A stretch of 63,451 bases of DNA from Fulvivirga sp. M361 (GTDB taxonomy: Bacteria > Bacteroidota > Bacteroidia > Cytophagales > Cyclobacteriaceae): positions 1-63,451 of the forward strand of contig NZ_VKDC01000038.1 of the NCBI RefSeq assembly GCF_007097395.1, written 5' to 3'. The translations under genes were made by a program, and so were the position numbers. Each line of letters starts with the position of its first letter. Positions within the stretch are counted from its first letter, which is position 1. The notes under the pieces were generated by a model. That model ran no database searches. It saw only the letters and a list, made by a program, of their open reading frames with translations, and was not told where the DNA came from. Positions 41,487 through 57,390 of the stretch are shown here, piece by piece.

Positions 41487-41546
41487 TATTCCAACAGATC
41501 AATCATTGAAACCTTTTAGTACTAATAACACAGGAATTACAGGTTG

Positions 41547-43931
41547 ATGCTTTTTCCAAACGACATAGAATCCAAGTTAGGTTTCGACAAAATACGCGAA
41601 CGTCTTGCGGTAAAATGCAAAAGTGCTATGGGGACTGAACTAGCCGAAAAAGTGCGTTTTACAGCCGATATTGACCTAATACGGAAATTCCTTCAGCAAA
41701 CGGATGATTTCAAAAAGATTCTCGAAAGTGATGGAGCGTTTCCGTCTAACTATTACCTGGATGCCAGGCCGGCATTAGCTAAGGCCCGTGTTGAGGGCGC
41801 TTTTTTAGATGAGCGCCAGTTCAGAGATATCAGTCTTTCGCTTACCACCATTGACAGTTGCGTTCGCTTTTTAAAATCGCATAAAGAAGAGTATCCTAGT
41901 CTTTATGAGCTAACGAACGGATTGGAAGTCTCCGCGGCTTTGGTGAAATCAATAGATGCTAAAATCGATGATGATCCAAAAGTCAGGGATAATGCCTCGG
42001 CGGTGTTGCAGAATGTAAGAAGAAATATTTCTCAGAAATATCAGCAGGTAAGGAAGACATTAGAATCTGCTTTTAAATCAGCGGCAAAAGAAGGTTTTAT
42101 TCCTGATGGAGCTTCCATTACAGTACGTGATGGTCGTATGGTAATACCGGTAAGTGCAGAATATAAGCGTCGTATTAAGGGGTTTGTACATGATGAATCT
42201 TCTACCGGACAGACAGTGTTTATTGAACCGGCTACTGTTTTGGAGGGTAATAATGAACTACGTGAATTAGAGTATGCCGAAAAACGTGAAGTCATAAAGA
42301 TTTTGACAGAACTTACTGATGAATTACGTGCCAATACTGATTCTCTCAAAAGAGCCTATCGATTTTTGGGAGTAGTTGATTTTATTCAGGCAAAAGCACG
42401 TTTGGCGCTTGAATTAGATGCAGTGTTACCAGCCGTAAAGGAAGAACAGACCATAACATGGAAAGAGGCGCGACATCCACTCCTGTTTTTGGCCCATCGA
42501 AATACGGACAAAAAAGTAGTTCCGCTTAACATTGAGTTGAACCATGATCAGCGACTGCTGATCATATCAGGACCTAATGCCGGAGGTAAATCAGTTTGTC
42601 TTAAAACGGTAGGGCTGCTACAGCTAATGTTACAATCGGGACTTCTTGTTCCCGTGGGAGAGGAATCTGAATTTGGAGTATTCGAGGATATATTCATTGA
42701 TATTGGAGATGAGCAGTCAATAGAAAATGACTTGAGTACTTATAGTTCTCACCTGTCTAATATGAAATTCTTTATTCGGAATGCCAAACTCAAATCCCTA
42801 TGCTTGATTGATGAATTTGGGACAGGTACTGATCCACAATTCGGAGGGGCTATAGCCGAAGCGGTATTGGACGATCTGAAACGTAAAGAAGCAAATGGCG
42901 TGATCACTACGCATTATAGCAATATAAAAAACTATGCAGAAGAGAAGCCCGGACTGATCAATGGTGCTATGAAATACGATATGGCCAACCTGGAACCACT
43001 CTATGAGCTGGAGATGGGTAAACCAGGCAGTTCGTTTTCACTGGAAATAGCCAGAAAAATTGGTCTTTCGCATAAAGTAATTGAATATGCTAAAGAGGCA
43101 ATAGGCAGCAAGAACATAGATGTAGATAATCTATTGCTTCGACTGGAAAGGCAAAAGCAAAAAGTGATTGAGAGAGACCGGGCACTGAAAAGTAAAGAAA
43201 AGGAAGTAAGTCAGCTCCAATCGAAATATCAACGCCTGCTTGAGGAGATGGAGACCAATAAAAAGTCCATTATCAGCAAAGCAAAGCAGGAGGCAGCTTC
43301 TATCCTGAAGGAAACAAACCGGGAGATAGAAAAAACTATCCGCCACATTAAGGAAAATAAGGCTGAGAAGAAAGAGACAAAACGAGTTCGCGAACGACTG
43401 ACCCAACTCAAAGGCAAAGTAGAAGAAGAAAAAAAGGTGATCCCTGCTGTCGTGCAGAAAGAAGACGGCCCTATTGGGATAGGGGATGCCGTGCGAATCG
43501 TTGGGCAGGAAGTGGCTGGGGAAGTATTATCGCTTAAAGGAAACGGTGCGGAAGTACAATTTGGTGACCTGAAATCAACCGTTAAGCTTAACCGACTGGA
43601 AAAAATCTCAAAAGGACAGTCCAAACAGATCAACAAGCAGCGGTCACAACCTAACAATGGACTTAACTTAAACCAGAAGTTTGCCCAGTTCAGTAGTACA
43701 CTTGATGTGCGCGGAAGAAGAGCGGAAGAGGTATTTTCTATTGTTGATCGATTTATAGATGATGCATTACTGTTCGATATAAGTGAGATACGCATTTTAC
43801 ACGGTAAAGGAGATGGGGTATTACGTTCTGTTATCAGGGACTATCTGAGAAAGTCAAATTTGACCGAAACGATAACAGACGAGCATGTAGAGCGAGGCGG
43901 GGCCGGTATCACGGTAGTTCAGCTAAAATAG
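41547..43931 (+). CDS. mutS2: Endonuclease MutS2
   Basis: This 795-residue protein has the MutS2 domain order. Core and lever helices precede an ATPase with Walker A GPNAGGKS (near 342) and CLIDEFGTGTDP (Walker B and signature), then a KOW-like stretch (GIGDAVRIVGQEVAGEVLSL) and a C-terminal Smr domain (LDVRGRRAEE, ILHGKGDG). The Smr domain keeps LDxRG and HGxG, so the endonuclease is probably functional. Family roles include suppression of recombination and rescue of collided ribosomes. I choose the ATG at 41547, since the reading frame begins with a TTG just before it. Confidence 0.96.
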   Translation: MLFPNDIESKLGFDKIRERLAVKCKSAMGTELAEKVRFTADIDLIRKFLQQTDDFKKILESDGAFPSNYYLDARPALAKARVEGAFLDERQFRDISLSLTTIDSCVRFLKSHKEEYPSLYELTNGLEVSAALVKSIDAKIDDDPKVRDNASAVLQNVRRNISQKYQQVRKTLESAFKSAAKEGFIPDGASITVRDGRMVIPVSAEYKRRIKGFVHDESSTGQTVFIEPATVLEGNNELRELEYAEKREVIKILTELTDELRANTDSLKRAYRFLGVVDFIQAKARLALELDAVLPAVKEEQTITWKEARHPLLFLAHRNTDKKVVPLNIELNHDQRLLIISGPNAGGKSVCLKTVGLLQLMLQSGLLVPVGEESEFGVFEDIFIDIGDEQSIENDLSTYSSHLSNMKFFIRNAKLKSLCLIDEFGTGTDPQFGGAIAEAVLDDLKRKEANGVITTHYSNIKNYAEEKPGLINGAMKYDMANLEPLYELEMGKPGSSFSLEIARKIGLSHKVIEYAKEAIGSKNIDVDNLLLRLERQKQKVIERDRALKSKEKEVSQLQSKYQRLLEEMETNKKSIISKAKQEAASILKETNREIEKTIRHIKENKAEKKETKRVRERLTQLKGKVEEEKKVIPAVVQKEDGPIGIGDAVRIVGQEVAGEVLSLKGNGAEVQFGDLKSTVKLNRLEKISKGQSKQINKQRSQPNNGLNLNQKFAQFSSTLDVRGRRAEEVFSIVDRFIDDALLFDISEIRILHGKGDGVLRSVIRDYLRKSNLTETITDEHVERGGAGITVVQLK

Positions 43932-44201: not shown

Positions 44202-44567
44202 ATGTACGATCAAAAAGTTAACACCACCTTCGATCAGGCTGATGAGCTCTTCCGGATTGCCCAGGAGGAATTGTGTAAACCTGAAGAAGATGTTGTGCCT
44301 TACATGGTATGTCGTAATGCCTTTAAATCAGTCAACAAGTATTTGACTGCATTTCTATTAAAACATGGTATGGATATCCATGCTTCTATGTCATTAGAAG
44401 TTCTTTTAGACGCTTGCCGGCAGATCGATCCTGCTTTTAACGAGCTTAACCTGAACCTGCTCTACAGCACAGGTGAAAAGGAGGATGTATGGATGGACAT
44501 GGGTACGGTTAACGAGTACATAGCCTTGGCCAAACAAACCCGGCAAATGGTAGGCCAGGAAGAATAG
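44202..44567 (+). CDS. HEPN-domain-like protein
   Basis: This is a 121-residue all-helical protein with the shape of a HEPN domain: an N-terminal helix with YDQKVNTTFDQADELFRIAQ, then RNAFKSVNKYLTAFLLKHGMDIHAS and a C-terminal YIALAKQTRQ. HEPN proteins often bind or cut RNA, or pair with nucleotidyltransferases, but the RxxxxH nuclease motif is not evident and no MNT partner is adjacent. It lies 100 bases upstream of the PFOR gene on the same strand and may share its promoter. Function is unknown. Confidence 0.6.
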   Translation: MYDQKVNTTFDQADELFRIAQEELCKPEEDVVPYMVCRNAFKSVNKYLTAFLLKHGMDIHASMSLEVLLDACRQIDPAFNELNLNLLYSTGEKEDVWMDMGTVNEYIALAKQTRQMVGQEE

Positions 44568-44667
44568 ATCAAACCTTCCTGATGGCAATACCGGTAAATA
44601 GCCATTCATCTGCATAGATCAAAAAAACCAACAATAAACCCATTATCCCGGAACTAAAGAAACTGTT

Positions 44668-47600
44668 ATGGATCGTAAAAAGAATAATTTTAAATACCCA
44701 GGAACACGTGTTGCAATGGATGGAAATACCGCGGCCATTATGTGCGAGCGAGAATCATCTGATGCCGCCGGTGCGTACCCCATAACCCCTTCTACACAAA
44801 TGGGAGAGTATTGGGCAGAAGAAGCGGCTAAAGGACATCTGAATATTTCTGATAAACCCCTTATTTTTATAGAACCAGAAGGAGAACATGCCGCGGCTGC
44901 AGTAACAGCCGGCCTCTCTATGACAGGCCAGCGCGCGGCCAACTTCTCATCCGGGCAGGGAATTGCCTATATGCATGAATCCCTTTATGCTGCGGTAGGA
45001 AAAAGGCTTACCTACGTATTGAACATAGGTGCCAGGGCAATGACCAAATCTACTCTGAACGTACACGCCGGGCATGATGACTATCACTCTATCGATGACA
45101 CCGGTTTTTTTCAACTGTTTGCTAAGAATGCTCAATCGGTAGCTGATTTAAATGTTATTTCGCACAGAATTGCTGAACTGGCATTAACTCCCGGTGTAAT
45201 CGCCCAGGACGGGTTTTTGACCACGCACCTGATCGAATCCTTACTTATTCCTGAGCGTGAATTGATCAAAGAGTACCTGGGTAGGCCGGATGACATCATT
45301 GAAACACCTACTGCTGCTCAAAAAATTATTTATGGTGATACGCGTCGTCGTATTCCGGAGCTCTGGGATGTAGACAACCCACTAATGGCGGGAATTGTCC
45401 AGAACCAGGACTCGTATATGCAAAGTGTGGCGGCACAACGGCCTTTCTTTTTCGACCATATCAAAGAATTGACTGACCTTGCCTTTGATGAGTACTATAA
45501 ACTGACCGGGCGCCTATATGAGCGTGTGATGTCCTACCGTGCTCAGGATGCAGACTACCTGATCCTCGGACAAGGAAGTGTAGTACCCAGTGCAGAAGCA
45601 GTGGTAGACTACCTGAGAGAAAAAAGAAACGTTAAAGTTGGTGTTGTCAATCTGGTTATGTTCAGGCCTTTCCCCGCAGATCTTATCGCCAGGTTGTTAA
45701 AAGGTAAAAAGGGAGTAGTGATCCTGGAAAGGTTAGACCAGCCTTTGGCAGCTGATCCACCCATTGCCAGAGAAATCCGCGCAGTTTTAACGAAGTGTAT
45801 TGAAAATGGGGCTAACAAAAAGGAGAAGCCTTATCCCGACCTAATAAATTATGGCCCCTCAGACATGCCTGCATTCTATTCCGGCTCTTTTGGAATGGGA
45901 AGCCGTGACTTGCAGGCAGAAGGTATTATTGGCGCGGTTGAAAATATGTTGCCCGGTGGAAAGCATAAGAAACAGTTCTACTTATCCATTGACTTTATCC
46001 GGGAGCAGGCCTTTACTCCAAAACAAAAGGCCTACCAGGAAACAATTCAGGATGCCTACCCACATGTAAAAGACCTTGCTATACGTGGGTCAGAAAACCC
46101 CAATCTGATGCCCAAAGAGGCCATAACGGTTCGCTTTCACTCCATTGGCGGCTGGGGTGCCATCACCACAGGTAAAAACCTGGCGATGACACTTTTTGAC
46201 CTGTTGGGATACGATATCAAAGCAAACCCTAAGTATGGTTCAGAGAAAAAAGGGCAGCCGACCACCTACTATCTTGCGGCTGCCCCTGAACCTATTCGTG
46301 TTAACTGTGAGTATTTCTTTGTAGATGTAGTGCTATCACCAGACCCTAATGTGTTTAAGCATACCAATGCGTTGGCCGGATTGAAAGAAGGCGGATGCTT
46401 CATCATCCAAAGCGACAAAACAAAACCGGAGGATGTATGGGCTGAGATCCCGAAACACTACCAAAAACTGATTATTGATAAGGACATTCATATTTTTTAT
46501 ATCGATGGTTTTAAAATAGCACGGGAAGAAGCTACTGACCCCGAGTTACAATTGAGGATGCAGGGAATAGCATTTCAGGGAGCATTTTTTGCTGCTTCTC
46601 CGCTTATGAAAAGTGCAGGCCTTTCAGAGGTGGCATTACTTAAAGCCATTGAAGATCAATTGCAGAGCAAATTCGGAGCAAAAGGCCAGCGTGTAGTCGA
46701 TGACAATATGAGGGTGGTAAAACGTGGCTTTGATGAGGTACATGAAATTACCAACAAAGTGGTGACGACTGAGAAATCAGAAAAGACCAATGGACAACCA
46801 CCGCTGCCCATCCCCACGATGATAAAAAGCATTCCCAAAAGTGAATCTAACCTTAGTGATATTCATCGGTTTTGGGAGCAGACAGGTAATTTCTATCTGA
46901 GAGGTATGGGTAACGATAACCTGACCGACCCGTTTATCGGACTGAGTGTCATGCCTGCTGCTACTTCACTTTTCAGAGACATGACAGGTATTCGTTTTGA
47001 ACATCCGGAGTGGATACCCAATAACTGTACAGCATGTGGTAACTGTTATACAGTTTGTCCCGATACTGCCATCCCGGGATTAGTAAGTGAGTTGTCAGAT
47101 GTGTTGGATACCGTGGTGAAACGGGTGAAGAAAAATCATGGTAAGGTAGAACATCTCCCGAAGGCGGTAAGACACATGGAAGGCAAGGTCAGGGCTTTGT
47201 TCCAGGAGCCTAAAAATGGGGCCACAGTAAATAATTTCATTCAGGACGCTATTGACCAGACCATTGAAGAAAGTAAAGAAGGTGAGGAGTTTTCGAAAGA
47301 ACTCGAATGGTTTCGAGAAGAATTGGGAGATTTTCAGTTTGCCCTGACACGTCCTTACTATGATCTGCATGAAAAAGAACAACCTAATAGTGGGGGATTG
47401 TTTAGCATTACCATTAATCCTAACACCTGTAAAGGATGTATGGAATGTATAGAGGTCTGTGATGATGATGCCCTTAGACCCATTATCCAAACAGAAGGCT
47501 CCATCGCTCAACTTAGAAAAGAGTGGGATTTCTGGACCGATCTACCCAGTACACCCCAAAAATATAATCGTATTGATGACCTGGAAGAAAAGATCGGACC

Positions 47601-49581
47601 CCTGGAAACGATTTTATTGAACAAAGATGCCTACCTCAATTTTGCTAGTGGTGATGGCGCTTGCTTAGGGTGTTCGGAAAAGTCAGTGGTCCATCTGTTT
47701 GTAGCCACGGTGGAAGCACTGATACAACCACGGATAAAAAAACATATAGCCTACCTGGATGAGCTTACTGAAAAACTTGAAAAACATATTCAGCTCAGAC
47801 TTATGAATACTGTCAACGTAGGTGATGCAGATATGATGTCAAAGATCATTGCAGAGACAAAAGACAGTGATCTAACCATGTCGGGTATTGCCGGTAGACT
47901 AGAAACAGAAAAAGGCAGTGAGCCCATAGACCAGGAATGGTTGCAGGAGGTAACACAGTTACTCGCCAAACTGAAGCAGTTGAAATGGAAATATACCGAT
48001 GGCGCTACAGGAAAAGGTCGTTCGTCCATGGGGATGACCAATGCTACCGGGTGTACTTCCGTATGGGGTAGTACCTGGCCGTTCAATCCATATCCTTTCC
48101 CCTGGGCTAACCACTTGTTTCAGGATTCTACTTCTATGGCCATGGGCATTTTCGAAGGACATATGGCGAAAATGGCCGAAGGGTTTAAAACCATAAGGAA
48201 AACAGAACTCGAATTAAGCGGATCTTACAATCCGGCTGAGCATGATGATTTCTTTACATATTTCAACTGGGAGCAGTTCAGTGATGAAGAATGGTTACTC
48301 TGCCCTCCGGTAGTTGCTTTGGGAGGTGATGGGGCCATGTACGATATAGGATTCCAAAATCTGTCGCGTATGATGGCTTCCGGTAAACCCATCAAGGCAA
48401 TAGTGGTGGATACCCAGGTTTATTCCAATACCGGTGGACAGGCCTGTACCTCCGGGTTCGTGGGGCAGGTCTCAGATATGGCTCAGTATGGCAAGGTGTG
48501 GAAGGGTAAATCCGAGCCACGTAAAGAGATCGGTTTAATAGCTATGGCGCATCGGAATACCTATGTACTGCAAGGTACTTTGGCTAATACCAGTCAGATG
48601 ATCGAAGGGTTTATAGACGGGTTGATGGCCAAACGTCCGGCACTGTTTAACCTTTACACCACCTGTCAACCGGAACATGGAGTAGCGGATGATCTTGGCG
48701 TCCATCAGGCAAAACTGGCGGTGGAGTCACGTGCTTATCCTGTTTTTAAATACGATCCGGACCAGGGTATAAAGGCGGAAGAGGCTTTCAATCTGGACGG
48801 TAATCCTGCTATGGATAAAACATGGCCTACTTATAAGTTAAAATATATTGAGAATGGTCGGGAAAAATCAATGGAAGTAGCCATGACTTTTGCTGACTTT
48901 GCTATTACAGAGGCACGATTCAGAAAGCATTTTCGTCAGGCCCCGCGGGACACCTGGAATGACAACATGGTGGTTTTGGAAGAATTTCTTGAAATGGACG
49001 CAGATGACCGTGAAGGGAAATTTCCATATATCTGGGCGGTAGATAAAAAACAACGTTTGAGCCGTGTATTGGTAGCTAAACCTATTGTGGAATCCTGCGA
49101 AGAACGACGTGATTTCTGGATCATGCTCCGTGCTTTGGCAGGGGTGGAAACAGAGCACGCCGAAGCAGTAGATATCGAGAGTAAGGTACGTGCGGAAGTG
49201 GTCGGAAAGATCACTCAGGGCTTGATGAAGCTGGCAGGTGATGAGGGTGGTCTGATGGACCTGGCTATGCCTGAATCCAATGGGCAAGGTACGCCTGAAG
49301 CTGCGGAAGCAGTGAAGAGCTCTAATGGTGATTATATGGCCCCATGGCTGGAAACAGAGGAATGTACGGCATGCGATGAATGTATCAAGATCAATCCGAA
49401 CGTATTTGAGTATAATGAGGACAAAAAAGCCTTCATTAAAAATGCTGACGCAGGAACCTACCAGGAACTGGTAAAGGCGGCAGAAAAGTGTACGGCAAGA
49501 GTGATACATCCCGGCTTACCGGCAGATCGAACAATGAAAGATGCTGATAAATGGATAAAAAGGGGTGAAAAATACAACTAA
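44668..49581 (+). CDS. nifJ: Pyruvate:ferredoxin oxidoreductase, oversized, with C-terminal ferredoxin-like module
   Basis: This 1637-residue single-chain PFOR is far longer than the usual 1170-1230. Domain order: alpha-like (VAMDGNTAAIMCERESSDAAGAYP), gamma-like (FHSIGGWGAITTGKN near 484), two clusters (CTACGNCYTVCP near 788, CKGCMECIEVC near 919), TPP domain (CLGCSE near 998, GGDGAMYDIG near 1219, NTGGQACTSG near 1254). A 300-residue tail ends in CTACDEC plus a late Cys (near 1570 and 1610), a 4Fe-4S ferredoxin-like pattern. It oxidises pyruvate plus CoA to acetyl-CoA and CO2. It is followed directly by rnfC, four bases on. Confidence 0.95.
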   Translation: MDRKKNNFKYPGTRVAMDGNTAAIMCERESSDAAGAYPITPSTQMGEYWAEEAAKGHLNISDKPLIFIEPEGEHAAAAVTAGLSMTGQRAANFSSGQGIAYMHESLYAAVGKRLTYVLNIGARAMTKSTLNVHAGHDDYHSIDDTGFFQLFAKNAQSVADLNVISHRIAELALTPGVIAQDGFLTTHLIESLLIPERELIKEYLGRPDDIIETPTAAQKIIYGDTRRRIPELWDVDNPLMAGIVQNQDSYMQSVAAQRPFFFDHIKELTDLAFDEYYKLTGRLYERVMSYRAQDADYLILGQGSVVPSAEAVVDYLREKRNVKVGVVNLVMFRPFPADLIARLLKGKKGVVILERLDQPLAADPPIAREIRAVLTKCIENGANKKEKPYPDLINYGPSDMPAFYSGSFGMGSRDLQAEGIIGAVENMLPGGKHKKQFYLSIDFIREQAFTPKQKAYQETIQDAYPHVKDLAIRGSENPNLMPKEAITVRFHSIGGWGAITTGKNLAMTLFDLLGYDIKANPKYGSEKKGQPTTYYLAAAPEPIRVNCEYFFVDVVLSPDPNVFKHTNALAGLKEGGCFIIQSDKTKPEDVWAEIPKHYQKLIIDKDIHIFYIDGFKIAREEATDPELQLRMQGIAFQGAFFAASPLMKSAGLSEVALLKAIEDQLQSKFGAKGQRVVDDNMRVVKRGFDEVHEITNKVVTTEKSEKTNGQPPLPIPTMIKSIPKSESNLSDIHRFWEQTGNFYLRGMGNDNLTDPFIGLSVMPAATSLFRDMTGIRFEHPEWIPNNCTACGNCYTVCPDTAIPGLVSELSDVLDTVVKRVKKNHGKVEHLPKAVRHMEGKVRALFQEPKNGATVNNFIQDAIDQTIEESKEGEEFSKELEWFREELGDFQFALTRPYYDLHEKEQPNSGGLFSITINPNTCKGCMECIEVCDDDALRPIIQTEGSIAQLRKEWDFWTDLPSTPQKYNRIDDLEEKIGPLETILLNKDAYLNFASGDGACLGCSEKSVVHLFVATVEALIQPRIKKHIAYLDELTEKLEKHIQLRLMNTVNVGDADMMSKIIAETKDSDLTMSGIAGRLETEKGSEPIDQEWLQEVTQLLAKLKQLKWKYTDGATGKGRSSMGMTNATGCTSVWGSTWPFNPYPFPWANHLFQDSTSMAMGIFEGHMAKMAEGFKTIRKTELELSGSYNPAEHDDFFTYFNWEQFSDEEWLLCPPVVALGGDGAMYDIGFQNLSRMMASGKPIKAIVVDTQVYSNTGGQACTSGFVGQVSDMAQYGKVWKGKSEPRKEIGLIAMAHRNTYVLQGTLANTSQMIEGFIDGLMAKRPALFNLYTTCQPEHGVADDLGVHQAKLAVESRAYPVFKYDPDQGIKAEEAFNLDGNPAMDKTWPTYKLKYIENGREKSMEVAMTFADFAITEARFRKHFRQAPRDTWNDNMVVLEEFLEMDADDREGKFPYIWAVDKKQRLSRVLVAKPIVESCEERRDFWIMLRALAGVETEHAEAVDIESKVRAEVVGKITQGLMKLAGDEGGLMDLAMPESNGQGTPEAAEAVKSSNGDYMAPWLETEECTACDECIKINPNVFEYNEDKKAFIKNADAGTYQELVKAAEKCTARVIHPGLPADRTMKDADKWIKRGEKYN

Positions 49582-49584
49582 TAC

Positions 49585-50940
49585 ATGTTGAGTTTTCACA
49601 AAAATACATTCAGACATGGTGTGCACCCCCCGGAGTACAAAGATGAAACCAGGGGTTTGCCTATCCGTCAATTTCCCTTTGCTCCTGTTATAATTCTCCC
49701 TACCGTTCAGCATATCGGTGCTCCTTCGGAAATTGTTGTTCGTGAAGGGCAGGAGGTGCTTCGCGGACAACTGCTGGCCAAATCCGGCGGATATGTATCT
49801 GTGCCGGTGCATGCACCTGTTTCCGGGACTATTCGAAAAATTACCAATGTACCCACCATTACAGGTAAAATGGTGCCTGGTATTTACCTGGAAGCATTTC
49901 CCGCCTCTGGCCAGGAAGTGATGGAAGGTACTCCTATTGAAATAGAAACAGCTACCGGAGAGGAGATATTGCAAGGTATTCAGGCCGCAGGAATTGTAGG
50001 GCTGGGTGGCGCTGCATTTCCTACACACGTAAAATTAAAGATCCCAGAGGACAAATGCTGTGAGGTTCTCATCATTAACGGTATTGAATGTGAACCTTTT
50101 TTAACCACTGACCATAGGGTGATGCTGGAGCAGGCAGATGATATTTTTATGGGCATTCGTTATTTGCTTAAAGCTACCGGTGCAAAACGGGTGATCATTG
50201 GTATAGAAGCAAACAAACAAGATGCGGCCAAACACTTGAAAGGGCAGGCTCCTAATGATCTCCCGGTTACGATAAAGGTAGTTCCTGTGAAATATCCCCA
50301 GGGTTCAGAGAAAATGCTGATTACGTCGTTACTGGGGTATGAGGTCCCATCCGGGGGACTACCCATAGAAGTAGACTCAGTAGTGGTGAATGTAGCTACT
50401 ACTGCCGAAATCGGTCGGTTATTACCACATGGGCGTGGTATTCAGGAACGTGTGGTGACCATTACGGGACCTGGAGTGAAAAAGAAAGGTAATTATTTAA
50501 TACCTGTTGGTACACCACTTCGCTATGTATTGGAACAAGTGGGAGTAGATAAGCACATTAGTGAGGTCTATATGGGTGGGCCTATGATGGGTGTGGCTGT
50601 TTCAAACCTGGATATATCTATAGTGAAAGGTACCTCCGGTATTTTGGTCTTTGGAGAAAAAGACGTCAAAAAAACATCTAAAGTATATCCATGCATTAAA
50701 TGTGGCGCCTGTGTAGATGCTTGTCCCATCTCACTTAACCCCTCCCGATTGGGTATTCTGGCAAAATTTGAAGCCTACGATCAAATGGTCGAAGATTATC
50801 ATTTGCTGGATTGCTTCGAATGTGGATCATGCTCTTATGTCTGTCCTTCCCATATCCCACTGGTGCAATATTTCAGGTTGTCAAAATCGATTGTAAGAAA
50901 ACGTCAAGCTATAAAACAGGCCGCTGCAAATGTTAACTAG
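49585..50940 (+). CDS. rnfC: Rnf electron transport complex subunit C
   Basis: This is a 451-residue peripheral subunit with an RnfC N-terminal barrel, an NADH/FMN-binding domain (GIVGLGGAAFPTHVKL, GIECEPFLTTDHR, SLBB-like MGGPMMG) and two 4Fe-4S clusters (CIKCGACVDACP near 370, CFECGSCSYVCP near 410). In Rnf it exchanges electrons with NAD(H). Unlike proteobacterial RnfC, there is no long repetitive C-terminal tail. It overlaps rnfD by 11 bases. Confidence 0.96.
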   Translation: MLSFHKNTFRHGVHPPEYKDETRGLPIRQFPFAPVIILPTVQHIGAPSEIVVREGQEVLRGQLLAKSGGYVSVPVHAPVSGTIRKITNVPTITGKMVPGIYLEAFPASGQEVMEGTPIEIETATGEEILQGIQAAGIVGLGGAAFPTHVKLKIPEDKCCEVLIINGIECEPFLTTDHRVMLEQADDIFMGIRYLLKATGAKRVIIGIEANKQDAAKHLKGQAPNDLPVTIKVVPVKYPQGSEKMLITSLLGYEVPSGGLPIEVDSVVVNVATTAEIGRLLPHGRGIQERVVTITGPGVKKKGNYLIPVGTPLRYVLEQVGVDKHISEVYMGGPMMGVAVSNLDISIVKGTSGILVFGEKDVKKTSKVYPCIKCGACVDACPISLNPSRLGILAKFEAYDQMVEDYHLLDCFECGSCSYVCPSHIPLVQYFRLSKSIVRKRQAIKQAAANVN

Positions 50941-51943
50941 AACCTTAAATATCAGCACATCGCCACATATCGCTAAGGGTATTAGCACCGATGTGATCAT
51001 GCAAAATGTGGTTTGGGCATTGGTTCCTGCAACACTCTTTGCCGCCTATTCTTTTGGCATAAGCGCGGTATTGGTAATATCGGTTTCTGTTATTTCTTGT
51101 GTGCTCACTGAACATTTTTTATGTAAATTTTCCAAAAAAGGAAGCACCATATCCGATTGGTCTGCGGTGATCACAGGTCTGTTGCTGGGGCTTACATTAC
51201 CACCTATTTTTCCATTATGGATGACCTTTTGCGGAGGTGTGATAGCCATTGCATTGGGTAAATTCGTTTTTGGAGGACTGGGATATAATGTATTTAACCC
51301 TGCTTTAGTAGGCCGGGCTGTACTGCAAGCCGCATTTCCGGTAGCTATTACCACATGGTATCCGGCTTTTTTAGAAAACCGTTTTACCAGTGTGGCCACT
51401 TCCCTGACCGCCTTGCCCTTTATGCAACCAACCTTTGACGGTACCTCCGGAGCAACTCCATTGTCTGCCTTTAAGTTTGATCATATCACTGCCAATACCT
51501 CAGACCTGGCGCTTGGGCTCGTCAGCGGCTCCACAGGGGAGACTTGTGCAGCGCTTATTTTCCTGGGCGGACTTTATTTGATAGCCCGTAATATGATGAA
51601 CTGGCGTATACCGGTGGCTATTTTAGGAAGTGTTTTTGTGTTCAGTGGTGTATTGTATCTTTTTGATAGTCAGGTTTACCCATCTCCGGTATTTATGATT
51701 TTTTCTGGAGGGCTAATGCTTGGCGCTATGTTTATGGCCACCGATATGGTAGGCTCACCTATAACCTCTTTGGGAGTAGTGATCTATGGTGTTTTTATAG
51801 GTGTACTGGTAGTGGTCATACGAATATGGGGAGGATTACCCGAAGGAGTGATGTACGCTATTTTATTGGGAAATGCTCTCTCACCACAAATTGATAAAAT
51901 GATCAAGCCCAGGGTGTATGGAACCGCTAACCATAAGAAATGA
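50930..51943 (+). CDS. rnfD: Rnf electron transport complex subunit D
   Basis: This 337-residue membrane subunit has about ten helices. The FMN attachment sequence DGTSGATPL near residue 171-179 contains the threonine that is covalently flavinylated in RnfD/NqrB proteins. It belongs to the ion-pumping core. The start codon lies inside the end of rnfC. The flavin transferase ApbE needed to attach FMN is not encoded in this window. Confidence 0.96.
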   Translation: MLTRTLNISTSPHIAKGISTDVIMQNVVWALVPATLFAAYSFGISAVLVISVSVISCVLTEHFLCKFSKKGSTISDWSAVITGLLLGLTLPPIFPLWMTFCGGVIAIALGKFVFGGLGYNVFNPALVGRAVLQAAFPVAITTWYPAFLENRFTSVATSLTALPFMQPTFDGTSGATPLSAFKFDHITANTSDLALGLVSGSTGETCAALIFLGGLYLIARNMMNWRIPVAILGSVFVFSGVLYLFDSQVYPSPVFMIFSGGLMLGAMFMATDMVGSPITSLGVVIYGVFIGVLVVVIRIWGGLPEGVMYAILLGNALSPQIDKMIKPRVYGTANHKK

Positions 51944-51944
51944 T

Positions 51945-52631
51945 ATGAACGAAACTAAAACAGCGCCTGAGAATACGCCTACCAGTAGCATGAAAATGCT
52001 TCGTGCCATGATGGGGATTGGAATACTTTGCGCCCTGTTGATCGTATTGACTTTTGAAGGCACCCTTCCAAGGATAAAAAGACTGAAGGCTGCTGCATTG
52101 GAAGAAGCTATCTTCAAAGTACTTCCGGGAACGGCAAAAACCGTCGCTTTCAAACTTGATCAAAACAACACATTTGTCAGGGCAAGTAGTGAAGATAAAG
52201 ACGGGCAGATAGTCTATGCCGGCTATAGTGAAAGTGGAGAGCTGGTAGGAGTTGCTATAGAGGCCAGCGGTCAGGGGTATGCAGATGTAATACGTATTCT
52301 TTACGGGTATGACCCTAAATCGCAGAAAGTCGTTGGGTTTTACGTGTTGGAGAGCAAGGAAACTCCCGGGTTAGGCGATAAAATCGAAAAAGACCCTGAC
52401 TTCCTGGCCAACTTTGATGCCCTGGATATCTCTTTGGAAGATGACGGCAGCGCTGTTAAAAACACGGTGGTTCCTGTGAAACAAGGAGCAAAGGAAAATC
52501 CATGGGAAGTAGATGGTATTACAGGCGCTACCATTTCCTCTCGTGCAATTGGTAATATCCTGGGTATTAGTACAGCATTTTGGGCGCCTTTGATCCATAA
52601 AAACCAGGAAGCATTTATAGCGCAAAATTGA
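51945..52631 (+). CDS. rnfG: Rnf electron transport complex subunit G
   Basis: This is a 228-residue single-anchor protein with one N-terminal membrane helix (MMGIGILCALLIVLTF) and an FMN-binding domain. The flavinylation motif DGITGATISS lies near 190-199, with the Thr that carries FMN via a phosphoester bond. I prefer the Met at 51945 (MNETKTAP), one base after the rnfD stop; the frame reaches nine codons further upstream, overlapping rnfD. It probably receives electrons from RnfD. Confidence 0.95.
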   Translation: MNETKTAPENTPTSSMKMLRAMMGIGILCALLIVLTFEGTLPRIKRLKAAALEEAIFKVLPGTAKTVAFKLDQNNTFVRASSEDKDGQIVYAGYSESGELVGVAIEASGQGYADVIRILYGYDPKSQKVVGFYVLESKETPGLGDKIEKDPDFLANFDALDISLEDDGSAVKNTVVPVKQGAKENPWEVDGITGATISSRAIGNILGISTAFWAPLIHKNQEAFIAQN

Positions 52632-52650
52632 AGAATGAAAAAGTATCTAA

Positions 52651-53307
52651 ATGAGTAACCCGGTACAGCATAAGACCAACACAGGCTTTTTTTCATCCTT
52701 AAAAGCCAGTCCTTCCACAGACGAATTCATTAAAGGCTTGTGGCGTGATAACCCTGTATTTGTCCAGGTGTTAGGTATGTGCCCTGTATTAGCAGTGTCT
52801 AACACAGCTGAAAATGCCCTGGCTATGGGGCTGGCAACTGCCTTTGTGTTGTTAATGTCTAATGTATTGGTGTCCTCCTTACGGAATTTCATTCCCAAGC
52901 AGGTGCGCATAGCTTCATATATCCTGATCATTGCCACATTTGTCACCATAACGGATTATGCTATTCAGGCCATCAGTGTAGAACTGCATAAAAGTCTTGG
53001 CGCCTTTATCTCACTCATTGTAGTGAATTGTCTGATCCTGAGCAGAGCAGAGGCATTTGCTTCTAAAAATACTATTGGAAAGTCGGTACTCGATGCCCTG
53101 GGCATGGGAGCAGGGTTTGTTTTTGCCCTGTTTTGTCTGGGTGCGGTAAGAGAACTTTTGGGGAATGGAACGCTTTTCGGGTTTCCATTTTTACCAGGCG
53201 GTTTTCAGGCATGGATTGTCATGATATTGCCGGCAGGTGGCTTTTTTACATTAGCTCTCTGGTTACTGATTTTTAACATTGCTAAAGAAAGGAGGTCAAA
53301 AACATGA
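52651..53307 (+). CDS. rnfE: Rnf electron transport complex subunit E
   Basis: This 218-residue membrane protein of the RnfE/NqrD family has six helices. Typical segments are PVFVQVLGMCPVLAVSNTAENALAMG and VVNCLILSRAEAFASKN, each with one of the conserved cysteines that bind the buried 2Fe-2S cluster in the membrane core. It overlaps rnfA by 4 bases (ATGA). Confidence 0.96.
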   Translation: MSNPVQHKTNTGFFSSLKASPSTDEFIKGLWRDNPVFVQVLGMCPVLAVSNTAENALAMGLATAFVLLMSNVLVSSLRNFIPKQVRIASYILIIATFVTITDYAIQAISVELHKSLGAFISLIVVNCLILSRAEAFASKNTIGKSVLDALGMGAGFVFALFCLGAVRELLGNGTLFGFPFLPGGFQAWIVMILPAGGFFTLALWLLIFNIAKERRSKT

Positions 53308-53885
53308 ATACGGAATCACTTTGGCAGATCTTCATCAGTGCCAGCCTGGTCAATAATTTTGTTTTGGCTTACTTTCTGGGTATATGCCCTTTCCTGGGAG
53401 TGTCCGGAAAAATGGAAACGGCCACCAAAATGGGAGGTGCAGTTACATTTGTAATGCTTATCAGTTCGATGTGTGCCTATGGCATTCACGCATTGTTGGT
53501 GGCTATCAATGCTCCTTTTCTACAGCTGATCAGCTACATTGTTGTGATCGCTTCTACAGTGCAACTGGTAGAAATGTTCATTAAGAAAATGAGCCCCGCT
53601 TTATTCAGAGCGTTGGGTATATTTCTACCCTTGATCACCACGAACTGTGCCATCTTAGGTTTAGCGCTTTTTCAGACCAGTAAATCGTATGGTTTTGTCC
53701 AGAGTTTCGTATATGCTTTAGGAGCAGGTGCGGGATTTACACTTGCCCTGGTACTGATCGCGGGTTTACGTGAACAGCTGGAATTTGCCGAGGTTCCTAA
53801 TGTAGTAAAAGGTACTGCACTTACCTTATTGATTGCAGGGATTTTGTCTCTGACATTTATGGGGTTTTCAGGATTAGGGAGTTGA
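53304..53885 (+). CDS. rnfA: Rnf electron transport complex subunit A
   Basis: This is a 193-residue membrane protein of the RnfA/NqrE family, homologous to RnfE in inverted topology. It shows NNFVLAYFLGICPFLGVSGKMETATKMG and PLITTNCAILGLALF, with the two conserved Cys regions of the intramembrane cluster. With RnfE it forms the pseudosymmetric core through which electrons cross the membrane. The start overlaps the rnfE stop. Confidence 0.96.
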   Translation: MNTESLWQIFISASLVNNFVLAYFLGICPFLGVSGKMETATKMGGAVTFVMLISSMCAYGIHALLVAINAPFLQLISYIVVIASTVQLVEMFIKKMSPALFRALGIFLPLITTNCAILGLALFQTSKSYGFVQSFVYALGAGAGFTLALVLIAGLREQLEFAEVPNVVKGTALTLLIAGILSLTFMGFSGLGS

Positions 53886-53910
53886 TAAGAAAAAATAGAT
53901 TGAAAAAATT

Positions 53911-54123
53911 ATGATCGGGACTTACATGATGGGTATTGGAGGGATGGTCACCTTAATAGTTCTTTGGGTGCTGGTCCAGTCCTATTGGCGAAAAATATTT
54001 TCAGCCCACATTACCGATGAAGATGTATTGGCAGGCAGAAGTAGTTGTGGCAACTGTGGTTGCCTCACTTCTTGCAAAAACAAACAGGAACAAGATTCTA
54101 TAGAAAACACACTTAAAGAATAA
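53911..54123 (+). CDS. NqrM-like Cys-rich small membrane protein
   Basis: This is a 70-residue protein with one N-terminal membrane helix (MGIGGMVTLIVLWVLVQSY) and a cytoplasmic tail. At residues 46-55 it carries CGNCGCLTSC. The last three cysteines have the spacing CxCxxxC, the same as the CDCDNPC end of NqrM (DUF539), the factor needed to mature the Na+-NQR iron-sulfur core. FeoB-associated Cys-rich proteins are an alternative resemblance. Its place right after rnfA supports a role in placing iron or a cluster in RnfA/RnfE. That is inference. Confidence 0.6.
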   Translation: MIGTYMMGIGGMVTLIVLWVLVQSYWRKIFSAHITDEDVLAGRSSCGNCGCLTSCKNKQEQDSIENTLKE

Positions 54124-54127
54124 TCAT

Positions 54128-54985
54128 ATGGCACGTTTAGCAGACTATGATATAGCACATCAGTACCAGGCTACTGTTAAAAAAACAGAGCGATTGACCC
54201 CCGCCAATACGGAAGAAGTACGGGAAATACTATTGGAAGTGAAACAGCCGGAGTTTCAATGCCAGGTAGACCAGAGCTTTGGAGTGCTGGTGAATACTTC
54301 CGGTGAATTTGGTAAGACGACACACCACCGGCTTTATAGTGTTGCCGACCTGCCGGGTAAAGCGAGTGGAAAAACACAGATCACCATGCTGGTGAAAAGA
54401 TGTTCTTATGTAGATAGTTTTAGCGGAGAACTATATCCGGGTATAGGGTCCAATTATCTGTGTGACCGGAAAATAGGAGATGAAATCACCATCACCGGAC
54501 CTTTCGATCTGCCGTTTGCCGTGCCGGAAGATAAAAATGCCAACCTTATATTGATAGGTATGGGAACAGGTATAGCTCCCTTTCGTGCTTTCGTAAAGCA
54601 CATTTACACCCATGAAAAAGACTGGAAAGGTAAGATCAGATTGTTTTATGGTGCGCGAAGCGGCTTAGAACTTCTTTATCTGAATGAAAAAGACGGTGAC
54701 TTGATCAATTATTATGATGAAACCACCTTCGAAGCATTTCACGCCTTGAGTCCGCGCCCTCACTGGGCTGATCCTATTGCTTTAGATGAGGTGATCGAAG
54801 AGCGAGCCGCAGAGATTATTGATATGTTATCAAAATCGAATGTATATGTATATGTGGCAGGATATGAAAAAATCAGGGACATGTTGGATAAAGCCTTTTC
54901 TAATATCCTGGACTCCAAAGAAAAGTGGTTAACGCGTAAGGCGGAATTAGTAGCGGGTAAGAAATGGGCTGAAGTTATCTATTGA
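54128..54985 (+). CDS. Plant-type ferredoxin-NADP+ reductase
   Basis: This is a 285-residue two-domain flavoprotein. The FAD domain has HHRLYSVAD (RxYS, near 66-70), the NADP domain has IGMGTGIAPFRAF (near 141-152) and RLFYGARSGLELLYLNE. The protein ends WAEVIY, with the terminal Tyr typical of plant-type FNR that stacks on the flavin. It moves electrons between ferredoxin and NADP(H). It lies within the rnf gene run, immediately before rnfB, which is not the usual rnf content. Its stop shares a base with the rnfB start. Confidence 0.92.
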   Translation: MARLADYDIAHQYQATVKKTERLTPANTEEVREILLEVKQPEFQCQVDQSFGVLVNTSGEFGKTTHHRLYSVADLPGKASGKTQITMLVKRCSYVDSFSGELYPGIGSNYLCDRKIGDEITITGPFDLPFAVPEDKNANLILIGMGTGIAPFRAFVKHIYTHEKDWKGKIRLFYGARSGLELLYLNEKDGDLINYYDETTFEAFHALSPRPHWADPIALDEVIEERAAEIIDMLSKSNVYVYVAGYEKIRDMLDKAFSNILDSKEKWLTRKAELVAGKKWAEVIY

Positions 54986-55851
54986 TGTCAATCGTTATAG
55001 CACTTGCAGCACTGGGTGGTCTCACGCTCTTATTGGCCATAATGCTTATTGTGGCGAATAAAAAGCTTTATGTCTATGAAGACCCTCGAATTGATGTAGT
55101 AGAAGACTTGCTGCCTCATGCGAATTGTGGCGCCTGTGGTTTTCCGGGGTGTCGCCCTTTTGCTGAAGCGCTGGTATCTGGAAGTGTGTTGCCAGGCAAG
55201 TGTACGGTCAGCTCTGAAGAGGGGCAGGTAGCTATAGCAAACTTTTTAGGAGTGGCGCTGGGAGCAGAAGAAAAGCAGGTGGCCCGTTTGGCCTGTGCCG
55301 GTGGTACTAATGTAGCGCTGAATCGTGCCCAATACCATGGTATACCCACATGTCAGGCTGCCTCGCTGATTTCCGGAGGAGGCAAAGGGTGTTTTTGGGG
55401 TTGTCTGGGACACGGTGATTGTGAAGTATCCTGTGATTTTGATGCGATCACTATGGATGCCTATGCTCTACCACATGTTGATGCAGACAAATGTACTGCT
55501 TGTGGGGATTGCGTGGAAGCATGTCCCAAAGACCTGTTCTCACTACAACCCATAAGCCATCAGCTTTGGGTAGCTTGCAAAAGCCTCGAGGCAGGTGACG
55601 AAATATTGGAAGATTGTCAGGTAGGTTGTACGGCATGTGGTAAATGCGCGATGGACGCCCCGGGTGATCTTATAACGATGAAAAATAATTTGCCCGAGGT
55701 TAACTACGCACTGAACCATCAGACACAAATTCCTATTCAACGATGTCCTACAGGTGCCATTGTTTGGCTGGATAAGCAGCTAGGAGTAATAAAAGGAAAA
55801 GAAAGTAAGAAAATCATTCGAAAAGGCAAGCGCGAGCTAGGGTATTCATAA
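54985..55851 (+). CDS. rnfB: Rnf electron transport complex subunit B
   Basis: This 288-residue protein has an N-terminal membrane helix (VIALAALGGLTLLLAIMLIV) and the RnfB 4Fe-4S domain with NCGACGFPGC (near 47-56). Further ferredoxin-type clusters follow: GCFWGCLGHGDC, CTACGDCVEACP and CTACGKC with RCP. It accepts electrons from ferredoxin and feeds the pump. I use the ATG at 54985, which overlaps the FNR stop as TGATG; a TTG one codon earlier is not needed. It lies last in the operon, a non-standard order. Confidence 0.95.
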   Translation: MSIVIALAALGGLTLLLAIMLIVANKKLYVYEDPRIDVVEDLLPHANCGACGFPGCRPFAEALVSGSVLPGKCTVSSEEGQVAIANFLGVALGAEEKQVARLACAGGTNVALNRAQYHGIPTCQAASLISGGGKGCFWGCLGHGDCEVSCDFDAITMDAYALPHVDADKCTACGDCVEACPKDLFSLQPISHQLWVACKSLEAGDEILEDCQVGCTACGKCAMDAPGDLITMKNNLPEVNYALNHQTQIPIQRCPTGAIVWLDKQLGVIKGKESKKIIRKGKRELGYS

Positions 55852-56033: not shown

Positions 56034-56498
56034 TTGAAACTTCAGAATATAAATAAGGCTTTAATCCTGATAGCAAGTTCAGTCGTTATCGCCTACACAC
56101 AAAGTTGCAATAATCCAAAAAGCACCCCTGAATCCGTTGTTCAGTCTAACGTGTCCACGGTAGATGTTGGCGAATCTGCCTATAAACGGGCTTGTATGAC
56201 ATGCCATCAGTCGGAAGGACAAGGGCTTCCGGGTACCTATCCGCCACTAGCTGCTACGGATTGGGTGACAGGAGGTAAAGAACGGCTGATAGGGGTCGTC
56301 ATTAACGGCATTCAGGGTGAAATAGAAGTGAATGGCACCTTATATAATGGCGTTATGCCGCCTATGTCCTATCTGAGCGATAAACAAGTGGCTGACATTC
56401 TTACCTATGTTCGAAATAGCTTTGGTAACGAAGCATCAGCCATTACTAAGGAAGAAGTAGCTACCGTAAGGTCAGGAAAGACGTTGGCCAGCGATTGA
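56034..56498 (+). CDS. c-type cytochrome lipoprotein-like protein
   Basis: This 154-residue secreted protein has an N-terminal hydrophobic segment and a possible lipobox ending QSC, then one c-heme motif CMTCHQSEGQG (near 54) and an axial Met in MPPMSYLSDKQVAD. It is a monoheme, class I-like cytochrome c similar to electron shuttles or to domains fused to oxidases. No in-frame ATG exists: an in-frame stop at 56019 is followed by TTG at 56034, the only reasonable start. It is a single gene, 182 bases after rnfB, with no oxidase partner nearby. Confidence 0.85.
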   Translation: MKLQNINKALILIASSVVIAYTQSCNNPKSTPESVVQSNVSTVDVGESAYKRACMTCHQSEGQGLPGTYPPLAATDWVTGGKERLIGVVINGIQGEIEVNGTLYNGVMPPMSYLSDKQVADILTYVRNSFGNEASAITKEEVATVRSGKTLASD

Positions 56499-56567: not shown

Positions 56568-57390
56568 TTAGTCGTCACTGATCAATAGCTTCCCCGCTTC
56601 GAGCATCCTGGCGTTGACAAATACTTTGTACCAATACATGCCCTGAGGCAGGTCATTACGATATAGAATAGTTTCTTGTGTTCCTTCCAGATGTCTTACT
56701 TCATTGCCCAGGGCATCAAAAAGTAATACCTGTAGTCTTTCATTAGCTTCGATGGAACTATTCAAACGGAACGTGGTAAAAGAAGAGAAAGGATTAGGGT
56801 GAACCGTCATCTGCGCCATAAAGTTTTGATAGGATACTGCAATAGTCTTGGAATATTCAAAAGCACCATCAAAATCTGTTTGTTTAAGGCGATAGTAAGA
56901 TACTCCATGAACAGGGAACTGATCTGTGTACGTATAGTTTAAAAGCTGTACCCGCACCATTGACAACTCCCAATGCCTGGAAGTCGCCGGCATCCATACT
57001 TTTTTCAATGGTAAAAAAGTCATTGAAAAGTTCGGTGGCCGTTACCCATTTCAATTCAACACTGTTTTTATCCGATGCCACTTTGGCCTCAAAACTTACC
57101 AGTTCCACGGGCAGGGGAGCAACGCTGACAGTAGCTGTTTGTAATTGCTCAACTGAGCATGTAATAGGGTCGGTGTCGGTGCCCGGCACATTAAAAGTTG
57201 TAGTAGAAGTTAAACTCCCTGTGGGCAGTAATATGGTGCCACCCGTACCAACCACTGCTGAGCCAATAGTTGAATCATCAGCATCATTTCTTAGCTGGTA
57301 GCTCACGTCTACTTCAGAATTAGCGACTTCTATCGTAGTAGGCCCTCCTGAACCCAAATTATCGTTGGTACTGGTTATACCACGGTCATT
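56568..57390 (-). pseudogene. 3' remnant of a T9SS-sorted adhesin-like gene, frameshifted
   Basis: The minus strand encodes a stop-bounded fragment in two frames. The 5' part runs from a TAA at 57391-57393 through VSYQLRNDADDSTIGSAV and PLPVELVSFEAKV to GVVNGAGT. It then shifts frame near 56945-56955 and continues LLNYTYTDQFPVHGVSYYRL. The end is a type A T9SS sorting domain (HPNPFSSFTTFRL, LPQGMYWYKVFVNAR). There is no start or signal peptide. The YQLR and STTTFNV segments align with a repeat in the large surface protein at the right end of the window, so this is probably a decayed paralogue end. Confidence 0.8.

Follow-up and report, generated by a model that had tools for sequence, protein, structure and literature searches.

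The 63,451-nucleotide stretch of contig NZ_VKDC01000038.1 analyzed here (the window), from the genome of Fulvivirga sp. M361 (8.13 Mb, 148 contigs), carries a compact gene cluster encoding a long pyruvate:ferredoxin oxidoreductase (PFOR; this protein and its relatives are called POR below), an Rnf complex and a ferredoxin-NAD(P) reductase-like flavoprotein (FNR). Ten genes were confirmed as open reading frames (ORFs), all on the + strand and in the order hepn-por-rnfC-D-G-E-A-cys-fnr-rnfB (Table 1), in agreement with the compact operon, gene order and junction overlaps described by a first-pass annotation of the same DNA. The ferredoxin domain carried by POR itself, the loss of one cluster site in RnfB, the separate clade formed by RnfC and a motif-less PFOR in the corresponding slot of sister operons suggest that in this Rnf POR is a functional component.

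The gaps from por to rnfB do not exceed 25 bases, and several genes overlap (rnfC/D by 11 bases, D/G by 26, E/A by 4, and FNR/rnfB by 1 with the ATG start or 4 with the TTG start), while 100 bases separate hepn from por. No terminator-like site was found on the + strand between cassette genes, all 6 sites on that strand falling within genes; overall, the scans for terminators (17 found versus 10.9 expected) and promoters (21 found versus 24.3 expected from shuffles) were uninformative. RnfA, B, C, D and E scored above the cut-offs of their curated models and RnfG 6 bits below. The [ST]GAT motifs of RnfD and RnfG are presumably FMN attachment sites. By the Pfam scan, none of the ten genes encodes a stand-alone ferredoxin.

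Table 1. Positions of the cassette features in the window and of the sister operons in their own loci
Feature	Position	Strand	Evidence
Small putative HEPN-fold protein, 121 aa, gene 1 of the cluster	44202..44567	+	Predicted fold
POR, long pyruvate:ferredoxin oxidoreductase, 1637 aa	44668..49581	+	Pfam POR_N, PFOR_II, POR, Fer4, TPP_enzyme_C; PDB PFORs 6cin, 1b0p
POR C-terminal single-cluster ferredoxin domain, residues 1561-1614, CxxCxxC...C	49348..49509	+	PF13370; ferredoxin I 1dax; conservation
rnfC, FMN/NAD-binding motif and two CxxCxxCxxxCP clusters	49585..50940	+	TIGR01945 487 bits (cut-off 246); 7zc6_C, 9eri_C
rnfD, SGAT motif	50930..51943	+	TIGR01946 327 bits (cut-off 207)
rnfG, TGAT motif	51918..52631	+	FMN_bind; TIGR01947 95.9 bits, just below cut-off 102
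rnfE	52651..53307	+	TIGR01948 241 bits (cut-off 213)
rnfA	53304..53885	+	TIGR01943 240 bits (cut-off 229)
Cys-rich membrane protein, 70 aa, hydrophobic N-terminus, W..VQ..W...F.......D.L..R..C..C.C...C	53911..54123	+	No Pfam family
Plant-type ferredoxin-NAD(P) reductase-like flavoprotein (FNR), 285 aa	54128..54985	+	NAD_binding_1; PetH/BoxA models 114-118 bits, below cut-off; PDB FNRs ≤103 bits
rnfB, start ATG 54985 or TTG 54982	54982..55851	+	TIGR01944 92.7 bits (cut-off 68.7); 9eri_B, 7zc6_B
RnfB second ferredoxin domain, residues 216-255, one of two [4Fe-4S] sites gone	55627..55746	+	Alignment to 7zc6_B, 9eri_B
Sister operon, L072	1-9701
Sister operon, L143	4687-15998
Sister operon, L145	2084-16189
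Sister operon, L183	408-15009

Spread of the cassette

A scan for POR in GTDB species genomes returned at least 589 relatives, of which the best 80 (loci L029-L108) were used for locus counts. Cassette loci among these 80 were labelled with 7 phyla, bearing in mind that the taxonomic labels of metagenome-assembled genomes (MAGs) may be wrong in places. Sequence of at least 6.5 kb downstream of POR was available in 55 loci, and 53 of them carried the complete set of POR, rnfC, D, G, E, A, FNR and rnfB, the two exceptions being L087 and L094. The order is strongly conserved in relatives, as the first-pass annotation had proposed to check. Since the set recurs across phyla, the cassette is more than a chance grouping; it is a widespread system across phyla, not a local oddity.

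The position of rnfB varied among the 80 loci: last, after FNR, in 38 (mostly Bacteroidota) and directly before por in 21, labelled as Calditrichota, Pseudomonadota, Myxococcota, Verrucomicrobiota, Acidobacteriota, Planctomycetota and one Binatia. No rnfB was seen in the other 21, mostly on contigs that end early. The available parts of two papers give rnfCDGEAB as a known order (Firmicutes, Melioribacter) and rnfBCDGEA as the usual one in Bacteroidetes/Chlorobi (PMC3534657, PMC4014512). The terminal rnfB, which had been singled out as unusual, is therefore no oddity, and a unique gene order was rejected on the same grounds and because the cassette is widespread.

Within the order, we sampled 98 genomes, including that of the window. 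POR matched at E ≤ 1e−30 in 11 of them; nine, the window genome among them, carry the long POR (77-81% identity in the eight others), and the remaining two matched with only 28-29% identity. FNR (E ≤ 1e−20) was found in exactly the same nine genomes as the long POR. Across 53 loci and the window, POR distances correlated with those of the seven other cassette proteins (r of 0.86-0.94, with 0 of 499 shuffles as high), a result that shared ancestry alone would also give. In the cassette of Methylotuvimicrobium buryatense, the nearest rows besides another gammaproteobacterial MAG were Bacteroidota for all eight proteins, mostly Cyclobacteriaceae, and by this pattern the set seems to have been transferred as one unit. 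A motif-complete POR with 37% identity was also seen at a contig end in a Verrucomicrobia MAG (L144, 8909-12787). An apparent case of POR plus FNR without Rnf (L097) was rejected, since the contig stops inside fnr and is uninformative either way.

POR and the Rnf subunits

The window POR carries all the PFOR catalytic motifs (YPITPS, EGEH, the Arg in GARAM, CLGC, TGC, GDG and YSNTGGQ), which fit pyruvate as the likely substrate, and each of the seven patterns was matched in 48-53 of the 53 loci. Its domain order and catalytic motifs are those of the PFORs 6cin and 1b0p, which we take to be the Moorella and Desulfovibrio africanus enzymes, but it is about 400 residues longer, ends in a C-terminal ferredoxin domain and reaches under half of the TIGR02176 cut-off (406 versus 911 bits). 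The ferredoxin-domain pattern was present in 44 of the 53 loci. A PFOR functionally joined to an FNR-type flavoprotein is also found in the Euglena pyruvate:NADP+ oxidoreductase, which however is one fused protein without Rnf, whereas the cassette encodes a separate plant-type FNR together with Rnf.

The second ferredoxin domain of RnfB was aligned to 7zc6_B and 9eri_B, presumably RnfB of C. tetanomorphum and A. woodii. Motif A keeps Cys 1-3 and has lost the fourth, while motif B has lost the first three and keeps the fourth. In dicluster ferredoxins, a cluster is ligated by Cys 1-3 of one motif together with Cys 4 of the other. Because exactly such a group remains, a single [4Fe-4S] site has been lost. 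This loss occurred in all 63 cassette rows, which keep the four Cys with no other Cys in between, and it is common to all four sister operons and to the Gemmatirosa operon described below. Both sites were intact in the 11 of 11 canonical Bacteroidota rows (9 distinct) obtained from 23 canonical loci, 12 of which gave no full RnfB. The cassette RnfB thus lacks the two full dicluster domains found in 7zc6_B and in canonical Bacteroidota RnfB.

The other subunits keep their family motifs in most of the 53 loci (RnfG, 53; RnfD, 44; RnfC FMN/NAD motif, 53; RnfC clusters, 53). In a midpoint-rooted RnfC tree of 89 rows, with canonical rows from Bacteroidota only, 64 cassette rows formed one clade (100/100), which was joined by two sister-system rows and L171 (100/99); the latter had been entered as canonical but is part of the L183 sister operon. 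The other 22 canonical rows, two of them the same gene, stood apart. The cassette shares with the Rnf complex (7zc6, 9eri) the six subunits, the FMN and NAD motifs, the RnfC clusters, and the N-terminal cluster and first ferredoxin domain of RnfB; it differs in being short of one second-domain cluster in RnfB, in co-encoding POR and FNR and in having an RnfC clade of its own. Since one defining feature of RnfB is missing and subunits were added, we regard the system as a variant of Rnf. An intermediate between Rnf and NQR was rejected by sequence, RnfC scoring 487 bits against rnfC and 33 against nqrA. The window genome encodes a true NqrA elsewhere (G000:C46, 96333-96617), and Na+-NQR is therefore probably present beside the cassette Rnf.

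Sister operons and the possible role of POR

A second Rnf operon lies upstream of the cassette in L072. Four such sister operons were found, all with the order korA-korB-kor3-rnfB-ppor-rnfC-D-G-E-A, in Lewinellaceae (L072/L142), Calditrichales (L074/L143), Thermoanaerobaculia (L145) and a member of the window's phylum (L183). The products of korA and korB are subunits of a 2-oxoacid oxidoreductase (KOR); korA passes TIGR03710, and the best matches with a named substrate include 2-oxoglutarate. The kor3 gene shares homology with the C-terminal region of POR and has lost the thiamine pyrophosphate (TPP) motifs; its ferredoxin domain is present in 4 of 6 aligned copies. Between rnfB and rnfC, in the POR slot, all four operons carry ppor, a PFOR homolog that lacks YPITP, the catalytic Glu and Arg, CLGC, TGC, GDG and YSNTGGQ and keeps both Fer4 motifs in every case. 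Its product is thus predicted to be catalytically inactive.

A related, unannotated operon is present on plasmid 1 of Gemmatirosa kalamazoonensis (NZ_CP007129.1; L193, 7185-22507), in the order korA-korB-(ORF)-rnfB-POR-rnfC-D-G-(small Cys-rich)-ApbE-E-A. Here the same slot holds a motif-complete POR with a ferredoxin domain, and ApbE and the small Cys-rich protein sit between rnfG and rnfE. Neither the sister operons nor the 28 kb around the Gemmatirosa operon yielded an FNR hit. A ppor profile run over 296 genomes of the phylum, with two candidates scored per genome, identified one genome (G247), apart from POR itself in the window genome and in G050; the sister system therefore looks rare. 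Genes of the kor type were near 8 of the 80 cassettes, the full trio following rnfB in three. Apart from POR, kor3 was not found in the window genome, where korA and korB were not searched for.

Our best explanation, to which we assign a probability of about 50%, is an Rnf complex with POR as a built-in electron source, in effect a pyruvate dehydrogenase that pumps ions and has FNR as its NAD(P)H outlet. Given the catalytic motifs of the window POR, the complex should oxidize pyruvate and coenzyme A (CoA) to acetyl-CoA and CO2, and the electrons would pass through the Fe-S clusters of POR to its C-terminal ferredoxin domain. This domain would dock on RnfB where canonical RnfB holds the cluster missing here, so that the structure of the complex is predicted to show it at the site of the lost cluster. 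From there, electrons would cross the membrane subunits to RnfC and NADH, with ions driven outward, and FNR may divert part of them to NAD(P)H. Energy is available for this, the pyruvate/acetyl-CoA couple lying near −500 mV and NAD near −320 mV. In evolutionary terms, the simplest account is that Rnf and a PFOR became permanently associated in a shared ancestor and that the ferredoxin domain of the PFOR replaced one RnfB cluster; where KOR feeds the electrons, the PFOR would have kept its place and lost catalysis, and the sister operons could then offer an example of a PFOR turned scaffold. Somewhat more tentatively, the whole clade may hold a 2-oxoacid oxidoreductase as an integral subunit, its pyruvate and 2-oxoglutarate forms being ion-pumping counterparts of the dehydrogenases and the PFOR of the 2-oxoglutarate form a dead electron-relay scaffold in the same place. 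The first-pass annotation had likewise seen a converter of pyruvate electrons into NADH plus an ion gradient, or NADPH; this stands as the best reading here too, save that the NADPH branch is unproven.

Several observations weigh against a POR-driven Rnf. The binding of POR to RnfB is itself inferred, 9 of the 53 loci do not match the ferredoxin pattern of POR, and kor3 has no such domain in 2 of the 6 copies (L147, L148). The RnfC tree has long branches, most of all the second copy of L072, and its canonical rows come from one phylum. A Verrucomicrobia MAG (L087) lacks FNR beside rnfA and anywhere in its genome (E ≤ 1e−20). L094 lacks the cassette run, with a masked stretch inside the locus; its genome has an FNR elsewhere, with no rnf within 18 kb around it. 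The L057 genome has POR surrounded by transposase genes, with no rnf next to it, and rnfC-D-G-E-A-cys-fnr-rnfB on a separate contig. Finally, the window genome has 6 PF00676 matches, i.e., E1 genes of the pyruvate dehydrogenase (PDH) or 2-oxoglutarate dehydrogenase (OGDH) type, and POR is consequently not the sole route.

L057 had been considered as a lone POR, which was rejected once a second contig of the same genome proved to carry the remaining cassette genes. That contig (L203, 1244-8941; a gammaproteobacterial MAG) runs from rnfC to rnfB with a short duplicated rnfC start, and by eye NiFe-hydrogenase-like genes seem to follow.

The separate location of POR in that genome would suit an arrangement in which POR, FNR and a normal Rnf are separate co-regulated enzymes that share a soluble ferredoxin pool, the operon only balancing their amounts, and each part does have a known stand-alone counterpart. 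Such an arrangement gives no reason to expect that RnfB should cleanly lose one cluster in POR-linked systems alone, that POR should carry a ferredoxin domain, or that all 4 sister operons should retain a motif-less PFOR in the same slot, and we consider it unlikely.

The same complex could also run in reverse, NADH and the ion gradient pushing electrons through Rnf to POR, which would make pyruvate from acetyl-CoA and CO2, with the KOR version doing likewise for 2-oxoglutarate. In the reductive tricarboxylic acid (TCA) cycle, the two carboxylases that depend on ferredoxin are POR and KOR, and some hosts have KOR genes next to the cassette; since the window genome has PDH-type E1 genes, its POR need not be the oxidizing enzyme. 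Rnf has also been reported to run backwards in some bacteria, according to the accessible part of one paper (PMC7414866). Yet the cassette showed no gene for carbon fixation, just 8 of the 80 loci have kor genes nearby, and the window genome lacks kor3. Moreover, in the part available of a study of M. buryatense 5GB1, a por gene, whose identity with the cassette por is unconfirmed, rises at the best aerobic gas ratio, which was read as acetyl-CoA supply to the TCA cycle (PMC7154130). Reversal therefore seems doubtful to us.

If POR is indeed part of Rnf, bacteria of many phyla could save the energy that is lost when pyruvate dehydrogenase passes electrons straight to NAD+. This would represent an extra site of energy conservation where the TCA cycle is entered, with another at the 2-oxoglutarate step. 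The hosts of the cassette presumably include genera known as aerobes. In the 5.39 million open papers searched, which cover few subscription papers and some of the texts in part, we found no description of a POR-Rnf complex, of the cassette or of a motif-less PFOR homolog in an rnf operon.

FNR and the small proteins

The cassette FNR shows the features of the plant type: the FAD motif RxYS, an NAD-binding domain and a C-terminal Tyr (Tyr in 55 and Phe in 5 of 61 rows, with one gap). Near the C-terminus it has Ala-Gly (Ala in 60 of 61) where plant FNR has Cys-Gly. Residues S208, P209, R210 and P211 are conserved in 60, 56, 59 and 60 of the 61 rows. Relative to spinach FNR, the pocket for the NADP phosphate keeps Ser (60/61) and has an Arg shifted by one position (59/61), while two further positions are replaced. 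These correspond to K244 and Y246, which bind the NADP phosphate in the spinach enzyme. As neither residue is kept when the cassette FNR is aligned with PDB FNRs, the use of NADP by the cassette FNR is uncertain, and its earlier assignment as the link to NADP is unproven.

These data also bear on an energy-linked transhydrogenase, in which Rnf and FNR would exchange NADH and NADPH via the ferredoxin level with the ion gradient as the drive, POR being a side entry. The conserved S-P-R-P motif agrees with it, and so does the presence of FNR alongside POR and Rnf in 9 of 9 genomes sampled from the order. The replaced NADP-phosphate positions speak against it, as do the sister and Gemmatirosa operons, where the POR slot is filled and no FNR was found, making this reading very unlikely. 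The cassette represents an Rnf that has gained an FNR-type flavoprotein while retaining RnfB; recruitment of an FNR-type reductase has been proposed in the origin of Na+-NQR, in the part of that paper available (PMC4014512).

The Cys-rich membrane protein has 7 positions invariant in 54 rows. Ten loci gave no tblastn hit for it; judged by eye, the gap in 8 of these contains a Cys-rich frame that includes a hydrophobic stretch, with a different pattern in four of the 8, and L074 and L099 have no Cys-rich reading frame there. The protein probably aids the maturation of the Rnf metal site or flavins. Na+-NQR has NqrM and ApbE as maturation factors, and the two systems are alike in encoding a small Cys-rich membrane protein and an FNR-type flavoprotein with the complex. 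They differ in that the cassette retains RnfB, its RnfC is not NqrA, and its Cys-rich protein has no match to PF04400 (NqrM) at E ≤ 10, either in the window or among 24 family members. The label "NqrM-like" given to this protein earlier accordingly finds no support by profile, and its identity with NqrM was rejected on that basis. PF04400 gave three matches over the window genome, all below cut-off.

The product of the first gene, called HEPN-like in the first-pass annotation, had no Pfam match, and the name is backed by the predicted fold only: the model has a pLDDT of 86, and the five best Foldseek PDB chains (probability 0.96-0.99) are four HEPN proteins and one of unknown function, but the best E is no lower than 0.098, so that the HEPN fold is putative. 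The HEPN RNase motif R-x4-6-H is not in the window copy; matches of varied sequence occur in 17 of 40 relatives. A HEPN gene precedes por in 36 of the 77 loci with more than 500 bases upstream, in Bacteroidota-type loci only, and in none of the 21 rnfB-first loci.

Upstream of the cluster lies a MutS2 gene (41544-43931; MutS_V and Smr domains), without a tblastn match in the loci of relatives. A small cytochrome c gene (56034-56498) starts 182 bases past rnfB and was found by tblastn near the cassette in one relative only (L044, on the other strand). Two minus-strand frames overlap at 56568-57357 and resemble a single gene split by a frameshift; its type IX secretion tail (PF18962) scored slightly below cut-off.

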